26,190 nucleotides of DNA, from positions 1 through 26,190 of the IMG/VR virus record IMGVR_UViG_3300037153_000939; one strand, given 5' to 3'. Each line of letters begins with the position of its first letter. The first letter of the stretch is position 1. The translations under genes were made by a program, and so were the position numbers. The DNA is from a virus. Below are positions 6,914-25,336 of this stretch, piece after piece. The notes below the pieces were generated by a model, which saw nothing but the letters and a program-made list of their open reading frames with translations, had not been told where the DNA came from and made no database searches.

Positions 6914-9886
6914 GTGGCGGCGCCCACCTTCGTCAGCTACACGGCGACCACGAGCTTGGTCACCTCCGGCACGCCGAAGACCGTCAGCGTCTCGGTCCAG
7001 TCGGGCGATCGCATCGTGGTCGTGGGCTGCTCGGAGGATTCCGCCTACACCCTCGGGACCCCGAGCGACGGGACCAACACCTACACGTCAGCGCAGAACC
7101 TGGGCGTCACCTCGTACGCCCGGGTGGCCATCTGGACGGCCACGGCCGCCAGCACGGCCTCGCTCACGATCTCCATGACGCTGAGCAACTCGGGGAAGAA
7201 CTGGGGCTTCGCGGTCTTCGTCTTCCGTGGCTCAGCTGGGTTCGGCGCCTCGAACAGCACGAACGCCTCCACGGGCGGGCCCTCGCTCGGGCTCACCACC
7301 ACGGCGGCCAACTCGGCCATCATCTTCATCAACGGCGACTGGGCAGCGGTCGACGGCGCCAGTCGGACCTTCCGTCAGGTCAACTCGACGAACCCGACTG
7401 ACCGGTCCTACGCCCGCGACGCCGCCACGCACACGGTCTATGTCGCCAGCTACGCCGATGCGGGCGCCGCCGGGGCGAAAACCGTCGGGCTCTCGGCACC
7501 CTCCACCCAGAAGTACGCCATAGCGGCCGTGGAGGTGAAGGGCTCGGCGGGCTCGTCGGTCACGGGCTCCGCCACGGGGACCTTCGCTGGCTCGTACGCC
7601 GCCGCGGGCACGCCCACGGTTGTGGGAACCGCCACCCGGACGCTGGGGCCCACCACGGCCGCCTCAGGCCGCCCCACGAAGGTGGGCGTGACCACCGGGG
7701 CGTTCGGGGGCACCTACCCGGCGGCGGGCCGGCCCACGGTCGTAGGCACCGCCACGCGCACCTTGGGTCCGACCACGGCGGCCAGCGGTCGACGCACGAC
7801 CTCGGGCGGCGCCACCGGGGCCTTCGGCTTCAGCGCGCCGGGGCGCTCGACCCAGGGCACGCTCCGGCGCGACCTCCACAAGAGCCTTGGCCACGCGCCG
7901 GCCGCCATCTCGGACTACGTGACCGCCTTCAGCCCGAACACCGCATCGGGGGGCTGGCACCGGGGCGACGGGGGCGAGTCGATCCTGGGCCCGTCCTGGC
8001 ACCTGTTCGTCTTCAATGACTTCTTCATCAGCAACGGCTCGGGGGGCGTCAACGCCCTGCCCGTCAACAACTCCATCATGGAGGTGGAGAACGACGGTCA
8101 GGTCTACTGGCTGAACGGCGGCAACGGGGGCGCCGCCGGCACGAACGCCTTCCCCGACGTGACCGGCGGGCGCGTCGTCTGGCTGAAGGGCGGCTGGGTT
8201 ACCAGCTCGACCTCGGCCATGATCCTCGCCTACGTCTGGCTGGGGGGCGTCCTCCAGGGCTACCAGGTCATGGCCATCACCGGCATCGGCACCTCGACGC
8301 CGAAGCACTCGCCCGTCTACCCGTGCGGGATACCGGACGAGGGCATCAACTGGGGCGGAACGCCGTACCTGCACAACGGCTACGTGTACCTGCATGGGTT
8401 CCACCTGACGAACTTCACGGCGCACGTGTGCCGATGCGCCCTGAGCACGAACCCGAACGCCTACGGCTCGTGGGAGGTCTGGACGGGCTCGGCCTGGGCC
8501 AGCTCCGGCGCCGGCACGGTCACCATCGGGACCGGGCCCTTCGGCTACCTCTCGGTCATCCCCGGGAACGCCAACTACTCGACGCTGCTGGCCTCCTCGA
8601 AGGAGTTCAACACGGCGCCGGGCCTGGGCATCCCGACCGACACCTGGAGCGAGATCAGGGGCTGGAGCGCCAGCGCGCCCGAGGGCCCCTGGACCTACCA
8701 GGGGGTCTTCTACCAGCCGACGACCCGGACCGACTGGTACTCGTACTCGGGCCGGATCGAGCGCTACCTGGGCGTGGACCGCATGGTGGCGGTCTGGTCG
8801 CTGAACGCCGAGCCCGCCGACTTCGACCCGGACGTCTACGGCGTCCAGCTGGCGAACGCCCGGAATCAGCTGAGCGGCACGGCCACGGGCTCGTTCGGCT
8901 TCAGCGCGCCGGCCGCCGGGCGCCCGACCGTGCGCGGCTCGACCACGCTGGCGCTCACCTTCACGGCGCCGGCCACCGCTCGGCAGAGCGCGGTGGGCGT
9001 GGCCACGCTGCCCCTAGCACTGAGCAGTAACGCCACCGGTAAACGCATCGTCAACGGCCCGTCAACGCTCCTGGTCGGGGGCCTGTACTCGGCTGCTGGT
9101 CGGCCGACGGTCGTGGCCGCCGTCACGCTCTCGGGGGGCTTCAGCGCGCCGGCCTCGGGCGTGCCGACCGTGCGCGGCGCCGTCACGCTCCTGGGGGGCT
9201 TCACGGCGCCGGCCGCCGCCCGACCGACCGTGGTCGGCGCCAGCTCGACCAGCTTCGGCTTCAGCGGCCCCGCCTCGGGCGTCGTCTCCGGCGCCGGGTC
9301 GGGCTCGGCCACCGGGCTGTTCGGCTTCACGGGCCCGGCGGCGGGCCGGCCGATCGTGGTCGGTGCGACCTCGGTCACGCTCTCCTTCGGGAGCGCCGCT
9401 ACAGGGCGCGCCACGGTCGTGGGCGGCGCCACCCTGCCGATGGGGCCCGGCACCGCCGCGGCGGGCCGTCCGACGCACCTGGGGGCCGCTGGCGGGGCGT
9501 TCGGCTGGACCAGCCCGGCCGCCGGCCGCCCGATCGTGGTCGCCTCGACCTCGGGGACCGCCTGGACCTTCACGGCGCCGGCCTCGGGCACGGTGGCCGC
9601 CGGCAAGACGGGCACCGCCACCCTGGCTGTGACGTTCGTCGCCCCGGCCTCGGGACGCCCGGTCGTGCGCGGCGCCGGTCAGCTGAGCGTGGCCTTCGGG
9701 GCGGCCACCCAGGGCCGGCCGACACGGCGGGGCTCGGCCACGGGGCCCTTCGGCTTCCTCGCCCCGGGCTCGGGCTACTCGTTCATCCCGGCGCCCGGCA
9801 TCGGCGGCCTGGTCGAGGGCCCGGACATGGTCGGGGCCGGCGCGATCGTCACCGGGTCAGGGCACATCTCTGGGGGCATTACGTGA
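6914..9886 (+). CDS. Large modular adhesin: beta-sandwich, 20-residue repeats, propeller-like domain, repeats
   Basis: 990 residues starting at a GTG (6914, MAAPTFVSYTATTS) with a weak ribosome site. Residues 1-215 look like a beta-sandwich (GDRIVVVGCS, WGFAVFVFRGS). About 217-315 and 655-953 hold roughly 5 and 15 copies of a 20-residue repeat, xATxxFGFxAPAxGRPTVVG. Between them, 317-651 is a distinct domain with Trp-rich strands: GPSWHLFVFNDFF, NDGQVYWLNGG, GYVYLHGFHL, GPFGYLSVIPGN, GPWTYQGVFYQPT, WYSYSGRIERY. This pattern recalls GH43/DUF4185-type carbohydrate-binding propellers, though I cannot identify catalytic residues. The product is probably a host-glycan or surface adhesin. Codons at about 9013-9066 (CTA, GCA, AGT, GGT, AAA, TCA) are atypical, hinting that one repeat was replaced. 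The location between capsid and connector genes is unusual. Confidence 0.75.
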   Translation: MAAPTFVSYTATTSLVTSGTPKTVSVSVQSGDRIVVVGCSEDSAYTLGTPSDGTNTYTSAQNLGVTSYARVAIWTATAASTASLTISMTLSNSGKNWGFAVFVFRGSAGFGASNSTNASTGGPSLGLTTTAANSAIIFINGDWAAVDGASRTFRQVNSTNPTDRSYARDAATHTVYVASYADAGAAGAKTVGLSAPSTQKYAIAAVEVKGSAGSSVTGSATGTFAGSYAAAGTPTVVGTATRTLGPTTAASGRPTKVGVTTGAFGGTYPAAGRPTVVGTATRTLGPTTAASGRRTTSGGATGAFGFSAPGRSTQGTLRRDLHKSLGHAPAAISDYVTAFSPNTASGGWHRGDGGESILGPSWHLFVFNDFFISNGSGGVNALPVNNSIMEVENDGQVYWLNGGNGGAAGTNAFPDVTGGRVVWLKGGWVTSSTSAMILAYVWLGGVLQGYQVMAITGIGTSTPKHSPVYPCGIPDEGINWGGTPYLHNGYVYLHGFHLTNFTAHVCRCALSTNPNAYGSWEVWTGSAWASSGAGTVTIGTGPFGYLSVIPGNANYSTLLASSKEFNTAPGLGIPTDTWSEIRGWSASAPEGPWTYQGVFYQPTTRTDWYSYSGRIERYLGVDRMVAVWSLNAEPADFDPDVYGVQLANARNQLSGTATGSFGFSAPAAGRPTVRGSTTLALTFTAPATARQSAVGVATLPLALSSNATGKRIVNGPSTLLVGGLYSAAGRPTVVAAVTLSGGFSAPASGVPTVRGAVTLLGGFTAPAAARPTVVGASSTSFGFSGPASGVVSGAGSGSATGLFGFTGPAAGRPIVVGATSVTLSFGSAATGRATVVGGATLPMGPGTAAAGRPTHLGAAGGAFGWTSPAAGRPIVVASTSGTAWTFTAPASGTVAAGKTGTATLAVTFVAPASGRPVVRGAGQLSVAFGAATQGRPTRRGSATGPFGFLAPGSGYSFIPAPGIGGLVEGPDMVGAGAIVTGSGHISGGIT
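7565..7858 (+). repeat. Protein-coding 60-bp repeats, upstream block (about 5 copies)
   Basis: About five 20-residue units, such as TATRTLGPTTAASGRPTKVG and VTTGAFGGTYPAAGRPTVVG, before the propeller-like domain of the adhesin. Units 2 and 4 encode almost the same peptide but differ at many synonymous positions. The repetition is therefore kept at protein level and is not a fresh DNA duplication. Confidence 0.8.
8876..9772 (+). repeat. Protein-coding 60-bp repeats, downstream block (about 15 copies)
   Basis: About fifteen 20-residue units of the form [AS]xTLxxxFxAPAxGRPTVVG behind the propeller-like domain, for example AVTLSGGFSAPASGVPTVRG and AVTLLGGFTAPAAARPTVVG. The spacing of the GRPTV core is almost constant (20 residues, sometimes 22-23). 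The regular hydrophobic/glycine pattern suggests a trimeric beta-rich shaft; that structure is inferred. Confidence 0.8.
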
Positions 9887-9899
9887 GAAGCTGGGGACC

Positions 9900-10955
9900 G
9901 TGAGCATCAGTCGACCCACCTACGTGACCCGCGAGGATGTGGCGCTGGCGCTCGACCTGAACGAGTCGGCGGCCGCCTATGACCGGGTGGACCGGGCCAT
10001 CGAGTCGGCCACCGAGGACGTGCGCGGCACGCTCCGGCGCGAGTTCTCGCCCTACCTGGCCACGAAGCGCTTCGGCTGGCCCGACGCCGCCTACCGCACG
10101 CCGTGGCGCCTCTGGCTCGACGACGCCGAGGTGATCGAGGTCACAGCCTTCACCGCGGGGAACGTGACCCTCGACACGGCCGACCTCTTCCTGGAGCCCG
10201 CCAACAGCGGCCCGCCCTACTGGTCGATCGAGACGAGCCTGGCCACCTCGGCCAGCTTCCAGGCCGGGGACACGCGCCAGCGCGCCCTCGCGGTCACGGG
10301 CCTCTTCGGCTTCCGCGACGACGAGGAGCCCGTGGGCGAGCTGGCCGGCACCCTGGCCGCCGACATCAACGCCACCGCCTCGGTCACCTGGAGCACGCCG
10401 AAGGTGGGCGTCGGCTCCCTCCTGCGCATCGGCTCGGAGCGGGTCCTGGTCACGGACCGCTCGATGGTGAGCACGGGCCAGACCCTTCAGAGCCCGCTCG
10501 CGGCCTCGACGTCGGCCACCGCGGTCAGCGTGGTGGACGGCGCGGCGTTCGGCGCCGGCCAGGTCATCCTCCTGGACGGCGAGCGGATGCGGGTCACCGC
10601 GGTGGCCGGCAATACGCTCGTGGTGAAGCGCTCGGTGGACGGCTCGGCCATTGCCAGCCACACGGGGTCGACCATCTACAGCCTGACGGGCGTCACGCTC
10701 AGCCGAGCGGCGCAGGGCTCGACCCTGGCCGCGCACTCCTCGGGCACGACCATCTACCGCCACCTGGTGCCGTCGCTCGTGCGCGACCTCGCCCTGGCCT
10801 ACGCCCTGAACCAGTTCCTCCAGGAGGGCGCCGGCTACGCCCGCATGGTCGGCGCCGGGGAGAACGCCACCGAGGCCAGCGGCCGGGGCCTCCGGGCGCT
10901 CGAAGCGGACGCCCTCCTCCGGTACGGCCGCCAGCTGCTCTACGGGGCCGTGTGA
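9900..10955 (+). CDS. Head-tail connector (adaptor) with an inserted beta-rich region
   Basis: 351 residues from GTG 9900, preceded by GAAGCTGGGGACC. The first 95 residues (VTREDVALALDLNESAAAYDRVDRAIESATEDVRGTLRREF) and the last 70 (LVRDLALAYALNQFLQEGAGYARM, with LLRYGRQLLYG at the end) are helical and match head-completion adaptor proteins that bind the portal ring. Between them lie two similar beta units, VGVGSLLRIGSERVLVTD (about 173-190) and FGAGQVILLDGERMRVTAVAGNT (about 217-239), each followed by Thr/Ser-rich strands. This makes the protein about twice the length of compact adaptors. The stop overlaps the next start (TGATG). Confidence 0.8.
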   Translation: MSISRPTYVTREDVALALDLNESAAAYDRVDRAIESATEDVRGTLRREFSPYLATKRFGWPDAAYRTPWRLWLDDAEVIEVTAFTAGNVTLDTADLFLEPANSGPPYWSIETSLATSASFQAGDTRQRALAVTGLFGFRDDEEPVGELAGTLAADINATASVTWSTPKVGVGSLLRIGSERVLVTDRSMVSTGQTLQSPLAASTSATAVSVVDGAAFGAGQVILLDGERMRVTAVAGNTLVVKRSVDGSAIASHTGSTIYSLTGVTLSRAAQGSTLAAHSSGTTIYRHLVPSLVRDLALAYALNQFLQEGAGYARMVGAGENATEASGRGLRALEADALLRYGRQLLYGAV

Positions 10956-21065: not shown

Positions 21066-22802
21066 TCAGAAGTCGACGTCGTCCAGGCTGTTCGAGACCG
21101 CCACCTGGGCGGCCAGGTTGGCCGGGGCCTCGGTCGCGGCGGGCTCGTAGGGCCGGCCCGCGTACTCGTCGGCCACGGCCTTGTACTGCTCGACCAGCTC
21201 GCCCACCCATTCGTCGAAGTCGGCGCCGGCACCGAGGAACGAGGCCGTGACGTTGGCCAGCGTGGCGCCCTCCAGGGCGATGTCGGCCTTCACCAGCTCC
21301 TCGACGAGCATGGGCCAGGTCTCCTCGACGCCGAGCGCCTCGACCGCATCGTTCAGGGTCTGCCACTGGACACGGCGCAGCTCGCGCCGGGCCTCGTCCG
21401 GGTCGGGCGCCGGGGGCTCCTCCTGGACCGGCTGTGCGGGCCGCTCCGGGGCCGCGGGGGGCGCGGACGGGGCCTTCGGCGCCCGGGGGCTCGGGCGGCC
21501 GCTGGAGGCCGTCCTGCGCACGTTGGCGATGGCGGTCATGACGGGCTGGAAGGAGTCGGCGGCCAGCTGGTCGCCCAGGCGGTGGCCGGCGCCCTGCGCC
21601 CACTGCTCGACCTCGGCCCGCTTCGCTTCGGTCAGCTCGCCCAGCTGCTTGGCCACGGTCTCGCGCTGGACCTTGGACGCCAGCTTCGCCCCACCGGCCT
21701 GGCGCCGGGCCGCGCCGGCATCGGCGGGCGGCGCCGGGGGAGCGGCGGCGGCCAGCTGCTCGGCGGCCTCACGCTGATGGACCAGCGCGCCGGCCCGGCC
21801 GATCAGCCACTGGAGGGTCCCGACCGTGAACTGGCCCGACTTGATCGAGAAGCCCCGCTCCTCGCGCTCGGCCTTGATGCGCGCCCGCTCGGCGTCGGTC
21901 AGGTCGGCCATGACCGTGTTCAGGTGCTCGATGTCGGCCTGGGTCACGTGCTCGTCGGCGGACCGCTCGGGGCGCCGTGCCGGATTCTCGACCGGCGCCG
22001 AGGGGCTATCCACAACCTGTGGATTAGGCGCCGGCTCGGGGTCATCGGCAGGCGGGGCGGACGCCTCGGGCTTGCCGGCGGCAGCGGCCTTCGCCCGGCT
22101 GGCCACGTACGGCTTCAGCTGGGCGTAGTCGCCCCGGGTCAGCTGAGCCTTCGTCACGACCATGCCCCGCTCGGCTGCCCAGTCCTTTACGCGCTCGCGC
22201 TCGGCCTCGGGCAGGGCCTTGATGGCGTCGGCCACCTCGGCGTACTGGGCCTCGCTCACGCGCTGGACGTGCGGCCGCTCGTCCACGCGGTCAGGCCGCT
22301 CGGAGTCCGGGTCCTCGGTGGCCAGCTGGAGCAGGTCGACCAGCATGTTCTTCCGGGCGCTCGTGTCGGCCTTGTTCGTGGCCTTGTCCGAGCCGAAGTC
22401 GACCGCCTGGCCCGTGGCCTCGGTCGTCAGGCTGTCGCCCAGCGGGCCCACGATCTCGTAGCGCACGGTCATGACGCACTCCTGCGCCTTGCCGTTGGCC
22501 TTCAGCTCGTGCTTGAGAACCTCGACCTTGCGCCAGTGGATGCCCAGCGCGACGAGGGGGCCGTGGCCCTCGTTCAGGATGTCCTCGATCTTGCGGAAGG
22601 CGTAGGTGGGGCCCTTGCGCTCTCCGTCCTTCACCTGGGGGACCATCTGGCCGGACTTGCCGATGGGGCCGATCTCGCGCTTCAGCAGGGGCAGCAGCAG
22701 GTGAAGGGGCAGCAGGTACCGGGGGCGGTCGTCGGGCGGCACCTCGGCGGCATCGAGGAGCGCCTTCAGCTCGTCGGGCTCGTAGACCTTGCGGTCGATC
22801 AT
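21066..22802 (-). CDS. ERF-family single-strand annealing protein with tandem C-terminal modules
   Basis: 578 residues. The start at 22802 is chosen because AGGAGG lies 7 bases upstream and MIDRKVYEPDELKALL begins the family-like sequence. Residues 25-165 are an ERF annealase domain (PTYAFRKIEDILNEGHGPLVALGI; TEATGQAVDFGSDKATNKADTSARKNMLVDLLQL), which anneals complementary strands in phage recombination. After this, modules of about 55 residues recur near 181-235, 286-343 and 377-430, with a more diverged one at 470-540. They share a hydrophobic helix, an ERxRVKxWAxERG-like core and a QLxxxxYxxL-like end, separated by Pro/Ala-rich linkers. The protein ends NSLDDVDF, an acidic tip with final Phe like that of single-strand binding proteins. 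It is much longer than typical ERF proteins. Confidence 0.85.
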   Translation of the reverse strand: MIDRKVYEPDELKALLDAAEVPPDDRPRYLLPLHLLLPLLKREIGPIGKSGQMVPQVKDGERKGPTYAFRKIEDILNEGHGPLVALGIHWRKVEVLKHELKANGKAQECVMTVRYEIVGPLGDSLTTEATGQAVDFGSDKATNKADTSARKNMLVDLLQLATEDPDSERPDRVDERPHVQRVSEAQYAEVADAIKALPEAERERVKDWAAERGMVVTKAQLTRGDYAQLKPYVASRAKAAAAGKPEASAPPADDPEPAPNPQVVDSPSAPVENPARRPERSADEHVTQADIEHLNTVMADLTDAERARIKAEREERGFSIKSGQFTVGTLQWLIGRAGALVHQREAAEQLAAAAPPAPPADAGAARRQAGGAKLASKVQRETVAKQLGELTEAKRAEVEQWAQGAGHRLGDQLAADSFQPVMTAIANVRRTASSGRPSPRAPKAPSAPPAAPERPAQPVQEEPPAPDPDEARRELRRVQWQTLNDAVEALGVEETWPMLVEELVKADIALEGATLANVTASFLGAGADFDEWVGELVEQYKAVADEYAGRPYEPAATEAPANLAAQVAVSNSLDDVDF

Positions 22803-22977: not shown

Positions 22978-23691
22978 TCACGCGAAGCGAACGATCTTCC
23001 GCTTCGGTGCCGTAGCGCGGCACTCGTCCGGGTCGACGCCGATGGCCCGGAGCTGCTTCACCCGGAACGTGGGCGAACCGAGGATCTCCTTCACGACCCC
23101 GAGCATCGCCAGGACGCCGCGCTCGGCCTCGGGGCTCAGCTCCCCGGTCTCGGGGTCGGCCGCCCGGCGCCGGGCCTCGTCGAGCGCCTCGGGCCAGACC
23201 GCCTCGGCGTCCCACGAGACGTGACCGCCCCGGGTGTCGCGCTGGAGGATGCCGGCGGACGTCTCGACCCACGGACCGTCGATGGCGGCGGCCAGCTGCT
23301 CGACCAGCTCGGCCTCGACCTCGCCCAGGGCCAGCTCGGCCTCCTGGACCTGGTGGAGCCCGACGGCCTGGTCGTCGAAGGTGGCCAGCGTGTCGAACCA
23401 GGCCGTGAGCGCCCGCCTCAGCTGAATAGGGCTCAGCTGGACGGGTACGAGCTGGGCATGGTCTCGATCGTGCTCTACGTCATCGCCGGGCTGATGGTGG
23501 TCATCCACCTGATCGGCGGCGCCCTCGGCGGCATCCAGCTGATCCCCTGGGCGCTGCTCCTGGTCATCATCGGGCTGATCCTCGGCGCCATCGGCGTCGG
23601 CGGGCCCGTGGTCATCCACCGCAACGGGTAGCGCGTCGAGGACGAGCGGCTCGTCCAGCGGCACGTCGAAGGGGTGGACGTAGGCCGTCAT
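22978..23691 (-). CDS. Hypothetical protein interrupted in frame by an antisense membrane gene
   Basis: 237 codons from the ATG at 23691 (ATGA overlap with the upstream gene stop). Residues 1-22 (MTAYVHPFDVPLDEPLVLDALP) and about 84-237 (VQLSPIQLRRALTAWFDTL, then HQVQEAELALGEVEAELVEQL and WPEALDEARRRAADPETGELSPE) use almost only G/C-ending codons. Residues about 23-83 are an Asp/Gln/His-rich stretch with roughly 30 percent A/T-ending codons, many of them GAT. That stretch is the antisense of a well-formed plus-strand membrane protein gene. Removing 183 bp between two 7-bp direct repeats would restore a compact 176-residue protein. Family not recognised; there is no in-frame ATG, GTG or TTG just after the insert, so translation probably crosses it. 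Confidence 0.6.
   Translation of the reverse strand: MTAYVHPFDVPLDEPLVLDALPVAVDDHGPADADGAEDQPDDDQEQRPGDQLDAAEGAADQVDDHHQPGDDVEHDRDHAQLVPVQLSPIQLRRALTAWFDTLATFDDQAVGLHQVQEAELALGEVEAELVEQLAAAIDGPWVETSAGILQRDTRGGHVSWDAEAVWPEALDEARRRAADPETGELSPEAERGVLAMLGVVKEILGSPTFRVKQLRAIGVDPDECRATAPKRKIVRFA
23441..23447. repeat. 7-bp direct repeat, left copy (ACGGGTA)
   Basis: ACGGGTA here and again at 23624-23630 bracket the nested membrane gene. The offset is 183 bp, exactly 61 codons. It may mark the edges of an insertion, though a 7-bp match can arise by chance. Confidence 0.5.
23458..23631 (+). CDS. Small two-helix membrane protein nested antisense in a leftward gene
   Basis: 57 residues from the ATG at 23458, starting MVSIVLYVIAGLMVVIHLIG and continuing with a second hydrophobic segment WALLLVIIGLILGAIGVGG, ending VVIHRNG. 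Two transmembrane helices joined by a Gly/Pro turn are predicted by eye. Every sense codon ends in G or C, whereas the opposite frame over the same bases does not, so the plus strand is the better coding strand. The ribosome site is weak (GAGCTGGGC). It is the only rightward gene in a leftward operon. A chance hydrophobic antisense ORF is the alternative; codon use argues against it. Confidence 0.6.
   Translation: MVSIVLYVIAGLMVVIHLIGGALGGIQLIPWALLLVIIGLILGAIGVGGPVVIHRNG
23624..23630. repeat. 7-bp direct repeat, right copy (ACGGGTA)
   Basis: Second copy of ACGGGTA, overlapping the TAG stop of the nested membrane gene. See the copy at 23441-23447. Confidence 0.5.
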
Positions 23692-23819
23692 CCGCGCGGC
23701 CGCCGGATGGCCCAGAGGGCCACGCCCAGCACGACGAGCCAGCCGGCCAGGAGCAGGTACCCGCCGACCCCCGGCGGGCTGTTCTCCATCACCTGGTGCG
23801 CCGCCGTAAACGGGACCAT
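23688..23819 (-). CDS. 43-residue single-helix membrane protein
   Basis: The ATG at 23819 overlaps the upstream stop (TGATG), and its own stop overlaps the next ATG (ATGA). Sequence: MVPFTAAHQVMENSPPGVGG, then a hydrophobic helix YLLLAGWLVVLGVALWAI and a basic end RRPRG. The positive C-terminus suggests an N-out, C-in orientation. It is translationally coupled on both sides. No function can be assigned. Confidence 0.65.
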   Translation of the reverse strand: MVPFTAAHQVMENSPPGVGGYLLLAGWLVVLGVALWAIRRPRG

Positions 23820-24394
23820 CAGGCCGCCCCCAGGCTCTCGTCTTCCCCGAGGTCCATCGCCTCGGCCAGGCCCGAGGTCAGGCGCTGCTCGGCGTCCTCG
23901 CCCTTCATGACCGACTGCATCAGGTTCACGATGCGGTCGAACAGGGCGATGGCCTTCGCCGCTCCCCGGAAGAGGCCCTCGGCCAGGTCGCGGTCGTGGC
24001 GGGCGTCGGCGCACAGCCAGTTCAGGACCACCTCGTAGCTCTTGGCCAGCGACAGGTCGCCCACCTCGATGCCGGCCGGCGGCGGGCCGGCGGTCCAGGT
24101 CTTCCAGACCTCCTCGTCGGGCCCGGGGGTGACGGGCTGGCCCTTCGAGCGCATCGAGGCGAGGAGCACGTGGACGGCGCCCTGGCGGTAGCGGTAGGCC
24201 CGCTCGGCGGCGGCCAGAGTCTCGGCCCGGCGCCGGTACACCTGGAGCGCCACCCGGCCGTCTCCGGCGGCCTTCACCGCGAGGGCTTCCAGCTCCCGGC
24301 GCTCGGGCGTCTTCGGGGAGCGGGCGAGGCCCTCCAGCTGGGACAGGCGGCGCTGGATGCCGCGGAGGGCGTTCTGATCGGTCACGGTCGTCAT
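23819..24394 (-). CDS. Hypothetical helical protein
   Basis: 191 residues; the ATG overlaps the HicA-like stop (ATGA). It is largely helical and charged: LRGIQRRLSQLEGLARSPKTPERRELEALAVKAAGDGRVALQVYRRRAETLAAAERAYRYRQ, then LAKSYEVVLNWLCADARHDRDLAEGLFRGAAKAIALFDRIVNLMQSVM. The first part could form a coiled coil. No motif allows a family call. It belongs to the leftward, presumably early, operon. Confidence 0.6.
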   Translation of the reverse strand: MTTVTDQNALRGIQRRLSQLEGLARSPKTPERRELEALAVKAAGDGRVALQVYRRRAETLAAAERAYRYRQGAVHVLLASMRSKGQPVTPGPDEEVWKTWTAGPPPAGIEVGDLSLAKSYEVVLNWLCADARHDRDLAEGLFRGAAKAIALFDRIVNLMQSVMKGEDAEQRLTSGLAEAMDLGEDESLGAA

Positions 24395-24597
24395 CGGGCG
24401 TTCGCCTCCGCTCGGGCCAGGGTGGTCTTCAGGTTCTTCATGGCCCGGTGGTCCCCGGGCGTCGAGCCGGCCACGACCGGCCGGCGCCCTTCCTTGAGGA
24501 ACACCAGGTGTCCCTTCCTCGTGTACTTCAGCTCCCAGCCCAGCTCGTCGGCCAGGGTCAGAAGCTCACGGACGTGTCGGGTGATTCGTTGGCCCAT
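24391..24597 (-). CDS. HicA-like small protein (orphan toxin fold)
   Basis: 68 residues from the ATG at 24597, with AGGAG 8 bases before it; it overlaps the end of the HNH gene by 40 bases. The pattern HVRELLTLADELGWELKYTRKGHLVFLKEGRRPVVAGSTPGDHRAMKNLKTTLARA matches the HicA fold: a helix, strands with the conserved G-H pair (G29, H30) that carries the catalytic histidine of HicA mRNA interferases, and a STPGDHRAxKN segment as in actinophage members. No HicB antitoxin gene is adjacent. It may be an RNase toxin, or an RNA-binding protein reused for phage functions. Confidence 0.75.
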   Translation of the reverse strand: MGQRITRHVRELLTLADELGWELKYTRKGHLVFLKEGRRPVVAGSTPGDHRAMKNLKTTLARAEANAR

Positions 24598-24893
24598 CGG
24601 TACGGCTCCTCGGTCTCGATCGGTGCGCCCAGCAGGCCACGGGCTCGGGCCCACGCGGGGTTCGCGTGGATGTGCTCGTGGCAGCTGAAACAGAGGTCCA
24701 GCGTGTTGTCCGGGCCGTCGCCCCCTCCCTGGGAGCGGCGGCGGATGTGGTGGCGGTGCTCGGCGCGCCCCGAGCAGATGCGCCCGATGGCCGCCTGGCA
24801 TCGGGTCGCAAGCGGGCGGTCAGGGTCGGCCCGGAGAACCCTCGGCCGGCGGCGCCGGGGGCCCTCCTTCCAGCGGGGCTCGACCTCGGGCAT
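24558..24893 (-). CDS. HNH endonuclease
   Basis: 111 residues; the ATG at 24893 overlaps the stop of the upstream gene (ATGA). The HNH core is visible: C32 and C40, AEHRHHIRRRSQGG (H48/H49), N63 in DGPDNTLDLC, then C68-x2-C71-H72 and H76, giving a zinc-stabilised beta-beta-alpha metal nuclease. The cysteine spacing in the first pair (C-x7-C) is wider than the usual C-x2-C, so zinc binding there is uncertain. Free-standing HNH proteins in phages may act in packaging, homing or host DNA cleavage. Confidence 0.85.
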   Translation of the reverse strand: MPEVEPRWKEGPRRRRPRVLRADPDRPLATRCQAAIGRICSGRAEHRHHIRRRSQGGGDGPDNTLDLCFSCHEHIHANPAWARARGLLGAPIETEEPYRWANESPDTSVSF

Positions 24894-25336
24894 CAGCTGT
24901 TCCCGCCGCGCTGGCCCTGGAGGATGGTCGGGCTCATCATCTCGTCCACAGCGGTGGCGGCCGCCCTGGCGATGGCCACGTCCAGGATCAGCTGAACGAG
25001 GTCGAGCGGGCTCATCTCCGGCGGGTACTCGATGCCGTGGCGCTCGCCCAGCAAGGTCAGCTCGTAGTCGAAGGCGCCCCACAGCTCCAGGGCCTCGGTG
25101 GCCTGGGCGAGGAGCGGGCCGACCCGGTCCAGCTCGTCCATGGCCAGCTTCGTGGCCTGGCGGACCATCTGGTCAGCGATGCGCCGGGCGTCGGTCTCGA
25201 ACAGCACGCGGACGGGTCCGCCGACGGGGCGGGCGGCCACGGTCCGGCTGGCCTGCTCGAAGGGGTCGGGCACGAGCGGAGCCGGCAAGGCCGCCGGCTG
25301 GGGGTCGGCGGGGACGTCGTCGCGGATGTCGGGCAT
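24893..25336 (-). CDS. Hypothetical protein, first gene of leftward operon
   Basis: 147 residues. The ATG at 25336 is chosen because GGAGG lies 5 bases upstream and promoter P2 about 30 bases upstream; the frame extends further but would cross the promoter. A Pro/Asp-rich N-terminus (DIRDDVPADPQPAALPAPLVPDPFEQ) precedes helices: TDARRIADQMVRQATKLAMDELDRVGPLLAQATEALELW, then PPEMSPLDLVQLILDVAIARAAATAVDEMM. Not recognised. Its first-gene position under the dyad promoter suggests early expression. Confidence 0.65.
   Translation of the reverse strand: MPDIRDDVPADPQPAALPAPLVPDPFEQASRTVAARPVGGPVRVLFETDARRIADQMVRQATKLAMDELDRVGPLLAQATEALELWGAFDYELTLLGERHGIEYPPEMSPLDLVQLILDVAIARAAATAVDEMMSPTILQGQRGGNS

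Follow-up and report, generated by a model that had tools for sequence, protein, structure and literature searches.

A candidate small membrane-protein gene embedded antisense in an ERF-operon gene of a GC-rich uncultured phage

Known embedded antisense genes and the phage locus

Embedded antisense genes have been described in Escherichia coli, where pop lies antisense to ompA (PMC7103648), where laoB has been described as an overprinting of an existing gene (PMC5810103), and where strain O157:H7 has yielded three more examples (PMC9927249). Antisense overlaps in viruses have had little attention, according to one review (PMC7457138). Among phages, Pseudomonas phage Fc02 carries the overlapping opposite-strand genes olg1 and gene 10 at a locus with exclusion activity (PMC9936078). 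The arrangement considered here—a 57-residue putative membrane protein (TM57), read rightward from inside a leftward frame of 237 codons (L237)—resembles the bacterial cases in that a gene lies wholly inside another on the opposite strand and both frames are open; the layout is real and rare, and of this already described embedded antisense type. It differs in its apparent history. Whereas overprinting is the origin described for laoB, here it is the nested frame rather than the host frame that shows typical and older-looking codon usage, a pattern suggestive of an insertion or of an old resident. The E. coli genes, moreover, come with evidence of expression, while TM57 is a prediction from sequence. 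Compared with Fc02, both cases concern small, overlapping, opposite-strand phage genes, and one can imagine TM57 in a comparable membrane or exclusion role; however, the Fc02 overlap lies in the lysis–lysogeny control region and is transcribed, whereas TM57 lies in an operon with an ERF-type gene.

A further comparison is offered by morons, small accessory genes that have been added in between the other genes of a phage. TM57 is likewise small, orphan, and on the strand opposite its neighbours, but it sits inside an open reading frame (ORF) rather than between genes, and scans for sigma-70 promoters and intrinsic terminators (these types only) found neither for it. Its product could nonetheless serve as a membrane protein of the moron kind, in a role such as exclusion or host modification, and the gene would presumably be expressed from a promoter of its own.

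The window (the whole stretch of DNA that was analysed, 26,190 bases) is the uncultured virus record IMGVR_UViG_3300037153_000939, a single metagenomic contig with a GC content of 70.7%. It carries an HK97-type capsid gene whose nearest named relative is the capsid gene of Streptomyces phage Dagobah (50%), and relatives of its tail protein occur in actinomycete genomes. Structural genes run rightward; a leftward operon that includes an ERF-type annealing protein extends from approximately 21066. Three successive leftward junctions in this operon overlap by 1–4 bp, the last being the ATGA at 23691 where L237 starts. Elsewhere in the record, the Clp-type protease directly ahead of the capsid gene (1314-2663) has a C-terminal double zinc ribbon (Pfam), a 990-aa protein at 6914-9886 contains many short repeats of the type AAGRPTVVGTATRTLGP, and in the region 24391-25082 the beginning of a phrog_2089 protein (24391-24597, minus) shares bases with an HNH endonuclease ORF (24558-25082, minus). 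The features of the locus are as follows.

21066..22802, minus strand: ERF-type single-strand annealing protein, the next gene of the leftward operon (phrog_155, 3.5e-10)
22978..23691, minus strand: L237, an ORF of 237 codons open through the nested gene; its start overlaps the preceding stop as ATGA
22978..23427, minus strand: conserved domain of L237, from QLRRAL on, distantly similar to the Pseudanabaena phage Pam4 protein Pam4_47
23441..23631: stretch read on both strands, comprising TM57 and 17 upstream bases; leftward, an Asp/Gln/His-rich linker
23441-23447, plus strand: ACGGGTA, first copy (exact match)
23458..23631, plus strand: TM57, 57 aa, antisense within L237 (ORF, codon composition, codon-usage score)
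23624-23630, plus strand: ACGGGTA, second copy (exact match), overlapping the TM57 stop codon
23632..23691, minus strand: first 20 codons of L237 (MTAYVHPFDVPLDEPLVLDA), with leftward codon usage
23688..23819, minus strand: small membrane-protein gene, 43 aa, preceding L237 in the operon (TGATG and ATGA junctions)
23819..24394, minus strand: ORF for a 191-aa operon protein, with no confident family in phrog and other family searches

The coding strand of the nested stretch

The coding strand was assessed from synonymous codon usage, trained on the long ORFs of the record (12 ORFs, 237 windows of 57 codons). By this measure the 57 codons of TM57 score +30.1 bits when read rightward against −18.8 when read leftward, which puts 48.8 bits between the two, while the antisense beats the sense strand in none of the 237 training-gene windows (maximum −1.3). 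One training ORF (8866-9621, minus) is probably itself an antisense frame, an inclusion whose only effect is to blur the contrast. Codon usage thus assigns the coding role in this stretch to the rightward frame. On both flanks the preference is leftward: over the first 20 codons of L237, which average 0.42 bits per codon and are all favourable or neutral except the last, and again from approximately codon 92 onward. The switch of coding strand is sharp at 23631/23632, the stop codon of TM57; at the other end some 40 bases (23415-23457) show no clear preference. These flank scores and switch points come from an earlier training set that included some doubtful frames.

Base composition tells the same story from the leftward side. 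The sequence-only reading had noted poor third-position G/C in the nested part of a leftward ORF open over 237 codons, and both observations hold: the frame meets no stop between 23691 and 22978, and in codons 23–84 third-position GC drops to 0.71, with first-position GC at 1.00, compared with 0.955 before and 0.942 after. Its description of the opposite strand is likewise borne out, in that all 57 sense codons of TM57 end in G or C and the encoded protein is hydrophobic with two predicted membrane segments. A structure model takes the form of one long helix (pLDDT 88), with which a Foldseek search returned no matches. No strong ribosome-binding site was found. Judged by its codons and predicted topology, TM57 qualifies as a genuine rightward gene for a small membrane protein. 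Relatives at other loci, which the sequence-only reading had suggested looking for, did not turn up in IMG/VR pattern scans, phage tblastn, PHROGs, Pfam, and NCBIfam searches, or capsid- and tail-related contigs; a match to PRK13682 (NCBIfam; E 0.0039 over 22 residues, far under the cut-off) was taken as chance.

An open frame across TM57 is, in itself, unremarkable. L237 and TM57 share codon boundaries, so that each TM57 codon faces exactly one L237 codon, and in this phase a leftward stop requires a TTA, CTA, or TCA codon; at this GC content such codons are rare. In 80% of windows the phase runs for 61 codons without a stop, as expected in DNA this GC-rich; survival of the L237 frame therefore needs no special mechanism. 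The ACGGGTA direct repeats, previously proposed to bound the segment, are indeed exactly 183 bp apart, but a shared 7-mer occurs in both boundary zones in 6–12% of random placements (4–8% if it must also be in frame), so that as a target-site duplication the pair has a frequency close to chance (4–12%). Deleting one 183-bp unit does leave a continuous frame of 176 aa, as had been claimed; given the 80% figure, openness is a weak argument for an insertion. What is unusual is the combination—a well-coded small nested gene between two leftward coding parts in one frame—and an ORF that is coding, antisense-coding, and coding again, with an intact hydrophobic antisense ORF, was encountered only this once in approximately 850 kb of related contigs.

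The leftward frame and its distant relatives

The codon usage described above indicates that L237 is a real gene on both flanks of TM57, and translation would presumably begin at 23691. GTG 23508, which lies inside TM57, and ATG 23106, well within the domain, have no in-frame ATG, GTG, or TTG between them; the conserved part thus has no usable canonical start outside the nested stretch. Either translation takes in all 237 codons, or the conserved part begins inside that stretch or with a non-canonical start codon. An AlphaFold model of L237 was too poor for use (mean pLDDT 44).

Close homologues of L237, with or without the nested stretch, were absent from IMG/VR pattern scans, phage tblastn, and capsid- and tail-related contigs; family searches (PHROGs, Pfam, NCBIfam) gave nothing convincing, and searching 395 genomes of the class with a profile produced no match. 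A pattern for the N-terminal motif matched a single, unrelated contig. A degenerate pattern for the C-terminal motif recovered two contigs with the same distant protein and led to Pam4_47, which sits two genes from an ERF gene. L237 and Pam4_47 align with a pairwise E of 1e-5, and none of 5000 shuffles did as well; most of the signal is in the C-terminal motif that had been used to find the family, and outside that motif it is weak (p 0.025). The alignment begins at QLRRAL, directly past the nested stretch, and runs almost to the end of L237. At the level of distant similarity, the L237 domain is shared with an ERF-adjacent phage protein. Homologues lacking the 61-residue stretch had been put forward as a check on insertion, and the two that were found, both distant, do lack the Asp/Gln/His-rich segment. 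They also lack the first 22 residues, and therefore fit an insertion without being proof of it.

Competing accounts of the arrangement

Taken together, these observations favour an embedded antisense pair, in which TM57 would lie in the N-terminal linker of the ERF-operon gene L237, just ahead of its conserved domain. We assign this reading a probability of roughly 0.55. The TM57 segment may have entered the 5′ end of L237 by insertion or may have ended up there in another way. Two properties would have let the host gene survive: stops are almost absent from the strand that faces a GC-rich gene in codon register, and hydrophobic codons (V, L, I) read as hydrophilic ones (D, Q, H) in antisense. 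L237 would thereby have gained an acidic, probably disordered linker of approximately 61 residues, at a place in the protein where it could be tolerated. Of the earlier proposal that a small cargo gene had been captured with its host gene intact, the real rightward gene and a frame that reads through from an overlapping start stand; recent capture is not proven.

The main reason for not accepting captured cargo outright is the only record found to share the ERF locus, IMGVR_UViG_3300043432_000200 (here L065), which has a similar membrane gene at the equivalent place. In L065 (9798-10598, 9807-9965), a hydrophobic 52-aa gene lies on the minus strand, opposite both neighbours and immediately ahead of the 5′ end of a gene resembling Mu Gam. 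As called mechanically, the ORF of this Gam-like gene continues in frame through the antisense of the 52-aa gene, but the Gam-like gene has its own GTG start adjoining the latter, and the layout is therefore an ordinary divergent pair. By analogy, TM57 could be an old divergent gene that is merely a neighbour, with the conserved leftward gene beginning beside it at a non-canonical codon or having lost its start; the 237-codon ORF would then be a by-product of a stop-poor antisense phase, joined to its first codons by frame chance. This account is possible though unlikely. ACGGGTA stands 10 nt ahead of the membrane ATG in both phages, the frame would be open in four cases out of five regardless, and the similarity to Pam4_47 starts only past the nested stretch. 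The account nonetheless has to do without a canonical start for that gene, turns the opening 20 codons, which are well coded and have the overlapping start, into a gene without an end, and draws on two membrane proteins that are too dissimilar for a homology call: the shuffle p is 0.026, an unrelated membrane ORF scores higher, and the two are not demonstrably related. Because L065 has a similar opposite-strand gene beside its neighbour, TM57 may still be an old resident of the locus whose neighbour has changed.

An artefact, with the layout created by faulty joining or a frame error in the metagenomic contig, is improbable. The locus comes from a single uncultured record without a near-identical contig; however, both flanks and the nested part keep clean frames and genome-like codon usage, both joints fall within one operon, and the error would also have had to preserve the leftward frame. 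Least probable of all is that L237 always had its Asp/Gln/His segment and that the TM57 frame is a chance antisense ORF or one newly born by overprinting, a model that can appeal to the frequent openness of this phase, to the genetic code (which makes the antisense of an acidic stretch hydrophobic), and to the weak translation signals of TM57, but that is at odds both with the absence of the segment from two distant homologues and with the codons themselves: leftward they score as poorly as a real gene read in antisense, and rightward they score better than the average gene.

The embedded antisense pair admits a more specific version, in which the insertion was in frame and antisense, both genes are expressed, and the membrane helices, read in antisense, became an acidic linker of the host protein, so that new sequence was added and neither gene was lost. 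This version is speculative and rather unlikely. If true, it would show that nested antisense genes can arise otherwise than by overprinting: where the genome is GC-rich, an antisense insertion in codon register would usually be readable through, so that the target gene can survive and gain a hydrophilic linker. It would also predict further cases in GC-rich phages, where gene finders would call one long ORF and miss the small gene.

Several minor observations concern the sequence around ACGGGTA and small ORFs of this kind. A -10 box of a leaderless promoter was considered at the ACGGGTA end (TAGGGT in L065, TACGAG here); the final T is missing here, and the box is not claimed. An ACGGGTA-N10-ATG arrangement in contig L043 falls inside another gene and was set aside as chance. 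In L065, TACCCGTG (9976-9983) contains the GTG start of the Gam-like gene, and at the like place here TACCCGTC (23440-23447, leftward strand) has GTC where a start would be expected. A further small two-helix ORF, on the strand opposite both of its long neighbour genes, is present at L080:16040-16210.
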